From: an uncultured Verrucomicrobiota bacterium
GTDB taxonomy: Bacteria > Verrucomicrobiota > Verrucomicrobiia > Limisphaerales > UBA9464
Direction: 5' to 3'
Assembly: GCA_903939515.1 (NCBI GenBank)
Contig: CAJAHH010000008.1
Span: forward strand, 1 to 64,000
DNA: 64,000 nucleotides
Below, piece after piece: positions 1-1,376 of the stretch. The notes under the pieces are model-generated. The model saw only the letters and a list, made by a program, of their open reading frames with translations, was not told the DNA's origin and searched no databases. Position 1 is the first letter of the stretch; each line of letters opens with the position of its first letter. The translations under genes were made by a program, and so were the position numbers.

Positions 1-460
1 ATGATTCTTCATTACTTTGAAACATTGAAAACATCAATGTAATCATATCAGTTTGATTTAAAACTTGTTTTGAGTATTTTTTACCATCATTCAAAGTCAC
101 CAAAACAATTCCTTCGTTCAATATGTTTTGAACTGTTCCAAATGCGTCCCAAATTTTTTCTCTTGATATTCTATCAATATGTTCACATAAAAGATAAGAG
201 CCGGTTTTAATTTTGTTTGATTGGCACAGATTTAAAAATCTTGCAAGTTCACCTATTATTTTGTTTTTTCCACGAAAACCTGATATTCCTTCATCGTAAA
301 ATGTATCGTTTGATAGATTTAAATTATTTTGCTTACAGTATTCTATAGTCTTTTCAACTTGTCGTCGTTTTGAGTCACCTAAGGATTGTTCAGCCGAAGA
401 AAAACGAATATAACTATATGCTGTTGGTTTTTCTTGGGTTTTGGTTTGGGATGTTTCCAT
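1..460 (-). CDS. Large serine recombinase, N-terminal part (runs off window)
   Basis: Translating the complement from the ATG at 460 gives 153 codons open to the window edge. This is the catalytic domain of a serine recombinase, the enzyme that cuts and rejoins DNA to integrate or excise a mobile element. The start of the domain reads AYSYIRFSSAEQSLGDS (residues 14-30), with the expected nucleophile at Ser21. A later stretch has DEGISGFRGKN (56-66), and HIDRISR (94-100) matches the conserved D-R-x-S-R catalytic motif. The C-terminal DNA-binding part lies outside. Base composition is strongly AT-rich and codon use favours A/T-ending codons, unlike every other gene here, which points to recent transfer. 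The start codon lies about 20-45 bases from the junction with comM, the usual place for an integrase gene beside its own attachment site. The family call is confident; the specific element type is unknown. Confidence 0.9.
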   Translation of the reverse strand, partial: METSQTKTQEKPTAYSYIRFSSAEQSLGDSKRRQVEKTIEYCKQNNLNLSNDTFYDEGISGFRGKNKIIGELARFLNLCQSNKIKTGSYLLCEHIDRISREKIWDAFGTVQNILNEGIVLVTLNDGKKYSKQVLNQTDMITLMFSMFQSNEES

Positions 461-503
461 TTTTTAAACCTAGGACAGTGGGTGGGGGAATCAAGACATC
501 ATC
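461..503. other. Probable attachment-site junction between mobile element and comM
   Basis: Sequence changes here from AT-rich (recombinase side) to GC-rich (comM side). The comM reading frame runs open leftward only to an in-frame TAG at 471-473. Similarity to ComM begins at about codon 495-503, where it reads [10 protein letters not shown]. The crossover therefore lies somewhere in about 474-500. The exact core cannot be fixed without the other end of the element or an uninterrupted comM from a relative. Confidence 0.6.
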
Positions 504-1376
504 TTGCTTATTGGCCCACCGGGCAGCGGCAAGTCCATGCTTGCCCAACGCCTGGCCACCATCCTGCCACCACTAACACTCGCCGAGGCTCTGGAGACCA
601 CCCAAATCCACAGCGTTGTGGGTCAATTAGCTCCAGGTCAGGCGTTGCTCACCCGTCGTCCGTTCCGGTCTCCTCACCACACCGCCAGCAATGCTGGCTT
701 GCTCGGTGGCAACACCCATCCTACCCCGGGCGAGGTTTCCCTAGCCCACCATGGCGTTCTCTTCCTCGACGAATTACCCGAATTCAAGCGATCCGTGCTG
801 GAGACGCTCCGCCAACCCCTCGAGGAAGGTAAGGTGACCATCAGTCGAGCCGCAGGAACCATGACTTTCCCTGCACAATTCATGCTCGTGGCCGCGATGA
901 ATCCTACGCCGGACGGCAAAATGCCCGCCGAATCACGCTCCGGTCCTCGAGAGATCCAGTCTTATCTGGGTCGCATTTCCGGCCCCTTGCTCGACCGGAT
1001 CGACTTGCACGTCGAAGTTCCTGCCGTCCGATTCACCGATTTCGACCGGGCGCGTCCGGGAGAATCCAGCCAAGAGATCCGACAGCGGGTCGAAGCGGCC
1101 CGGGAACGCCAGCGACATCGGTTGCTCGGAAAACCCATTTCCTGCAACGCCCGATTGGGACCCCGCGAACTTCAGCAATTTATCCAACTCGATTCCCCCA
1201 CCCTCTTGCTCCTTAAGCACGCATTGACCGACCTGAATCTCTCAGCCCGCGCCTATCACCGGGTGCTCAAGGTCGCGCGAACCATCGCTGATCTGGCCGA
1301 GTCTGAAAGTGTGAGGCTCGAGCATGTTTCCGAAGCCATTCAGTACCGATCCCTCGACCGCCAGATTTGGGGGTGA
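504..1376 (+). pseudogene. comM: ComM/YifB AAA+ ATPase, 5' end removed by insertion
   Basis: ComM (YifB) is a Mg-chelatase-like AAA+ hexameric helicase that promotes branch migration during natural transformation. This fragment of about 290 codons starts at the Walker A motif ([10 protein letters not shown], 504-536) and contains Walker B ([10 protein letters not shown], residues 85-94). It continues into the normal C-terminal Mg-chelatase domain, ending [18 protein letters not shown]. Full-length family members are about 500 residues, so roughly the first 200 (the Lon-like N-terminal domain) are missing. No convincing start codon or ribosome binding site precedes the fragment; the TTG at 504 is only a formal possibility. 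The simplest reading is that the serine-recombinase element at 1-500 inserted into an intact comM, with the 5' part on its far side. The C-terminal part looks undamaged, so excision could restore the gene. Confidence 0.88.

Follow-up and report, generated by a model that had tools for sequence, protein, structure and literature searches.

A serine-integrase element very probably inserted beside the Walker A codons of comM in a Verrucomicrobiota bacterium, with a survey of split comM genes in its class

The first 503 bases of the window are, with high confidence, the right (attR-side) end of an integrative element which was put into the competence gene comM by a large serine integrase. The window is the whole stretch of DNA analyzed here (64000 nucleotides); it covers the first 64000 bases of the 72951-b contig C8 in the draft assembly G000 (4.71 Mb in 160 contigs), window base 1 being C8 base 1. 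The other end of the element lies on contig C13 of the same genome (92463 b). The assembled parts amount to about 0.5 kb at the C8 end and about 1.5 kb at the C13 end, and the interior is absent from the assembly. Against this reading count the facts that the two ends are not connected on any one contig, that the C-terminal half of the recombinase beside attR (SR1) is missing and that the left side holds another serine recombinase (SR2). The features are as follows.

Window 2..460, minus strand: N-terminal 153 aa of a large serine recombinase (SR1), the probable integrase, reading away from comM
Window 475..491, plus strand: P arm ACAGTGGGTGGGGGAAT, with an inverted copy (16/17 identical) at C13:90958-90974, the opposite element end
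Window 492..503, no strand: 12-bp spacer from the P arm to the crossover, the last element bases before comM (attR)
Window 504..505, no strand: proposed crossover dinucleotide TT (attR core), with its partner attL core at C13:90944-90945
Window 504..1376, plus strand: comM 3′ half, covering approximately residues 218-507 of 507, Pfam Mg_chelatase and Mg_chelatase_C, ending at the stop
C13:90293-90943, near the C13 end: 5′ half of comM, followed by AT-rich DNA with the second serine recombinase
C13:91175-91846, minus strand: SR2, the second serine recombinase, 223 aa, in AT-rich DNA about 230 bp from attL

Window 504-1376 encodes the ATPase domain and the C-terminal domain of ComM; the Pfam search of window 480-1376 gave Mg_chelatase from profile position 25 along with Mg_chelatase_C, and the nearest named ComM proteins are those of uncultured Verrucomicrobia and Limisphaerales MAGs (75-78% identity). 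The ChlI domain, which forms the ComM N-terminus, has a single match in the genome, at C13:90350-90718, and the comM sequence of C13 breaks off after GGCCATAATATT-TT. Joining of the two halves at the common TT (C13:90944-90945 / window 504-505) gave an uninterrupted ComM of 507 aa with no codon missing and none extra, and the 12-bp spacer is placed outside comM, since the gene closes exactly when it is left out. A precise empty site is thereby restored, and a relative of the same genus (G148) carries an uninterrupted comM with AAAGGHNVLLIGPPGTG at the corresponding place. These two pieces are the only comM fragments in the genome, where no intact comM was found.

The original prediction had placed a serine-recombinase element within comM, in its Walker A region, and had proposed to look for the missing 5′ part beside an AT-rich island. 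Both points were borne out by the 5′ half and the opposite attachment site on C13 and by the attP symmetry described below. It had also let comM start exactly at the nucleotide-binding loop, where the region was right and the exact point was not: comM resumes at window 504 and the Walker A codons (GPPGSGKS) run from 513, hence the crossover is located 8 bp ahead of these codons.

The base composition changes sharply at the junction, with a GC content of 0.31 in window 1-503 against 0.57-0.60 in the kilobases beyond, and the element end on C13 is likewise AT-rich (GC 0.36 from the comM break to the contig end). No overlap of the C8 or C13 element end with any other contig was detectable. Such a change could also arise from an assembly chimera in which an AT-rich organism was joined to a Verrucomicrobiota contig, as the genome is a draft of 160 contigs and the contig stops within the AT-rich part. 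However, the comM halves on the two contigs meet at the same dinucleotide with no base lost or gained, both contigs carry AT-rich serine-recombinase sequence with mirror-image arms, and the genome yielded no unbroken copy of the gene. A chance join of two organisms, which had been named beforehand as a possible refutation, is ruled out because the breakpoints are complementary to the base; the chimera was rejected on this complementarity of the halves, its probability being close to nil.

When the two element ends are united around TT they read ACAGTGGGTGGGGGAAT-CAAGACATCATC-TT-ACTTTTGTTTCA-ATTCCCCCACCTACTGT, a quasi-palindrome in which the 17-bp inverted arms lie exactly 12 bp from TT on both sides. 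Over 33-bp arms, 21/33 positions are symmetric at the TT crossover, none of the 16 neighbouring offsets exceeds 13, and shuffled arms gave a mean of 9.6 symmetric positions (sd 2.5). Elsewhere in the AT-rich ends, matches of 22-23/33 arise by chance, so the weight of the symmetry rests on the crossover position and the GC-rich block. attL and attR share the core and no long common sequence, as expected for a 2-bp serine core. The element ends taken together match the layout of a serine-integrase attP of about 60 bp, with inverted arms around a 2-bp core.

The same 17-bp inverted repeat at both element ends would also be expected of a terminal-inverted-repeat transposon (Tn3-like or Tn7/AbaR-like) lying in comM with the serine recombinases merely as its resolvases, and AbaR Tn7-like elements do interrupt comM in Acinetobacter baumannii (PMC11472951). 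The repeats are nevertheless not terminal, being set 12 bp inward of the crossover on either side, and the 12-bp spacers match neither comM nor one another, which leaves no target-site duplication; moreover, comM junctions repeatedly carry integrases of the same subfamily. Repeats at the outermost ends together with a target-site duplication, which mark the AbaR/Tn7-like elements, are thus not found here, and we rejected the transposon as very improbable on the position of the repeats and the lack of a duplication.

The integrative element carries SR1 beside attR, the gene starting 43 bp inside the element. The prediction of an AT-rich recombinase fragment reading away from comM agrees with its minus strand, its low GC content and its match to Pfam Resolvase (E 2.8e-17). 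SR1 also matches the phage integrase family phrog_95 (‘integrase’, E 1e-20), and it has the catalytic domain with the Y-x-R-x-S and D-R-x-x-R residues, S21, R19, D96, R97 and R100 being invariant among 13 SR1 relatives (alignment A1). Its best relatives in the class mostly have uninterrupted frames 535-761 aa long, and those tested (566-672 aa) have Resolvase and Recombinase domains, one also having Zn_ribbon_recom; the window copy ends at 153 aa. It is ended by the contig boundary and not by mutation, because the window starts at C8 base 1. A search of the genome with a full-length relative as query did not recover the C-terminal half, and the contig scan with SR1 as query returned no relatives. 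Relatives of SR1 are present on 401 viral contigs, and many of the best of these lie less than 1 kb from a contig end, the contigs measuring about 26-55 kb. We regard SR1 as the likely integrase of the element, because SR1-like genes adjoin comM elsewhere, it matches phrog_95 and it has viral relatives.

The role of integrase could instead belong to SR2, or two nested elements could be present at the site. SR2 lies about 230 bp from attL, and SR2-like genes are near SR1-like genes in two further genomes (G067, G006) and more weakly in another two (G116, G302). On the other hand, SR2 has only a partial Recombinase domain, below the Pfam cut-off, three further SR2-like genes of this genome are located away from comM, and comM junctions elsewhere hold SR1-like and not SR2-like proteins; we therefore regard this alternative as unlikely. 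No SR2 relatives were found on viral contigs. The SR2 family in this genome consists of four serine recombinases of about 220-230 aa (C13:91175-91846, C60:1356-1991, C134:1651-2286 and C59:27636-28265), in all of which the Recombinase domain is only partial, and the C59 copy stands tail-to-tail with a 378-aa gene resembling a tyrosine recombinase. The left-end open reading frame at L008:11983-12462 matched no Pfam family above the cut-off and no PHROG.

With SR1 as the probable catalyst in place of SR2, integration would proceed by site-specific recombination between the attP of about 60 bp and an attB inside comM, at the TT that precedes the Walker A codons by 8 bp; once circularized as proposed, the element would have SR1 and SR2 on opposite sides of attP. 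The insertion parts the ChlI domain from the ATPase motor, and consequently ComM should be lost until precise excision. The element is putatively phage-like and may be capable of excision, and the host would be deprived of recombination of divergent DNA. With both sides of the attachment site mapped to single-base precision, the attP/attB pair is open to testing.

Related integrases are found at competence genes of other genomes. An SR1-like gene adjoins comM at this very Walker A place in G158 and G092, at residue 31 in G191 and at about residues 327-340 in G141 and G302. On one viral contig (L116), a proteobacterial-looking 5′ half of comM stops at GGHNLL, the Walker A place, and a recombinase follows directly, so that here the opposite comM half is beside the integrase. 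As a separate observation, at L052 (G006:C26, 542-4035) an SR1-like gene adjoins a frame with the ComEC/‘Competence’ domain which is without its N-terminus, and the end of the contig holds an SR2-like gene; this locus is probably an element in another competence gene, comEC.

The annotation ‘magnesium chelatase’ used for such targets is that of the ComM/YifB family. Durrant et al. 2022 reported that many distantly related LSRs target a ‘magnesium chelatase/ATP-dependent protease’ gene, which accounts for 12.4% of predicted site-specific integrases, and that DNA competence genes are enriched among the targets (PMC10083194). The present element shares this target annotation and differs in that its host belongs to Verrucomicrobiota and that the exact Walker A-proximal site and a 60-bp attP are given. 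In Wolbachia, the serine recombinase of the phage WO variant sr1WO integrates the prophage into a magnesium chelatase gene (PMC9203015); gene portions lie on both sides of the prophage as they do here, although the host phylum is different and the present element is known from its two ends alone. Interruption of comM by AbaR and by other elements lowers natural transformation in A. baumannii (PMC7508600, PMC11472951), for which intragenomic conflict is the proposed reason (PMC11472951). AbaR is likewise a mobile island interrupting comM, yet it is a Tn7-like transposon, whereas the present element uses serine site-specific recombination. As comM is already documented as a top LSR target, the present element belongs to a known type. 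The split comM genes of the survey below, broken at several conserved motifs, extend to Verrucomicrobiota what is known of competence genes being disabled by mobile elements.

The survey of the class gave a ComM match in 354 of 384 genomes, and 43 suspicious genomes were followed up for a split comM. The pieces lie apart on one contig in 11 genomes, with islands of 8-209 kb (G200 79.7 kb, G110 208.6 kb, G297 64.9 kb, G268 71.8 kb, G124 39.5 kb, G383 71.8 kb, G257 26.7 kb, G302 38.1 kb, G346 8.0 kb, G074 24.3 kb and G092 29.7 kb), and both pieces lie inside different contigs in six more (G009, G141, G271, G278, G335 and G368). Together with G000, G158 and G191, about 20 genomes have a split comM, with breakpoints near residues 31, 217, 290, 327-340 and 355. 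The gene argH of the window was taken as control and searched in an equal number of class genomes, where only the scores were compared; low scores occurred in about 10 genomes, all of at least 180 contigs, and in none with 100 contigs or fewer. Good assemblies show nothing for argH that compares with the loss of comM.

A separate observation concerns the 8-209 kb islands near comM residue 355 (NPCPCG motif; L063/L064 of G200, L065/L066 of G110 and others). No serine recombinase was found in most of the junction stretches examined at these islands, and G200 has a 17-bp repeat, AACCCCTGCCCGTGCGG, at both junctions, which suggests another integrase type. A single kind of element for all comM islands was considered and dropped, given the G200 repeat and the several residue-355 islands without a serine recombinase in the junction stretches examined.

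Tentatively, and as a possibility that we hold to be somewhat less than even, comM may act in Verrucomicrobiota as an integration hub with multiple sites. Separate element families would each use a different conserved motif (about residue 31; Walker A, about 217; about 290; PLEDG, about 327-340; NPCPCG, about 355), two of them occasionally in the same gene, and a related integrase lies next to a truncated comEC as well. The best account of such a pattern would be selection for elements which shut down the recombination of incoming divergent DNA, since this recombination could otherwise delete them. The comM islands of about 20 genomes provide a natural set for testing the conflict idea.

Two single loci may be added. 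In G092:C27 (L043, L082), comM residues 211-294 are parted from residues 285-507 by the 29.7 kb island, with a serine recombinase adjoining the residue-211 side, and this comM seems to be split at two places. In L076 (G257:C24), two tandem comM 3′ ends (residues 311-506 and 360-506) stand about 3.3 kb apart, as if integrations had accreted successively.
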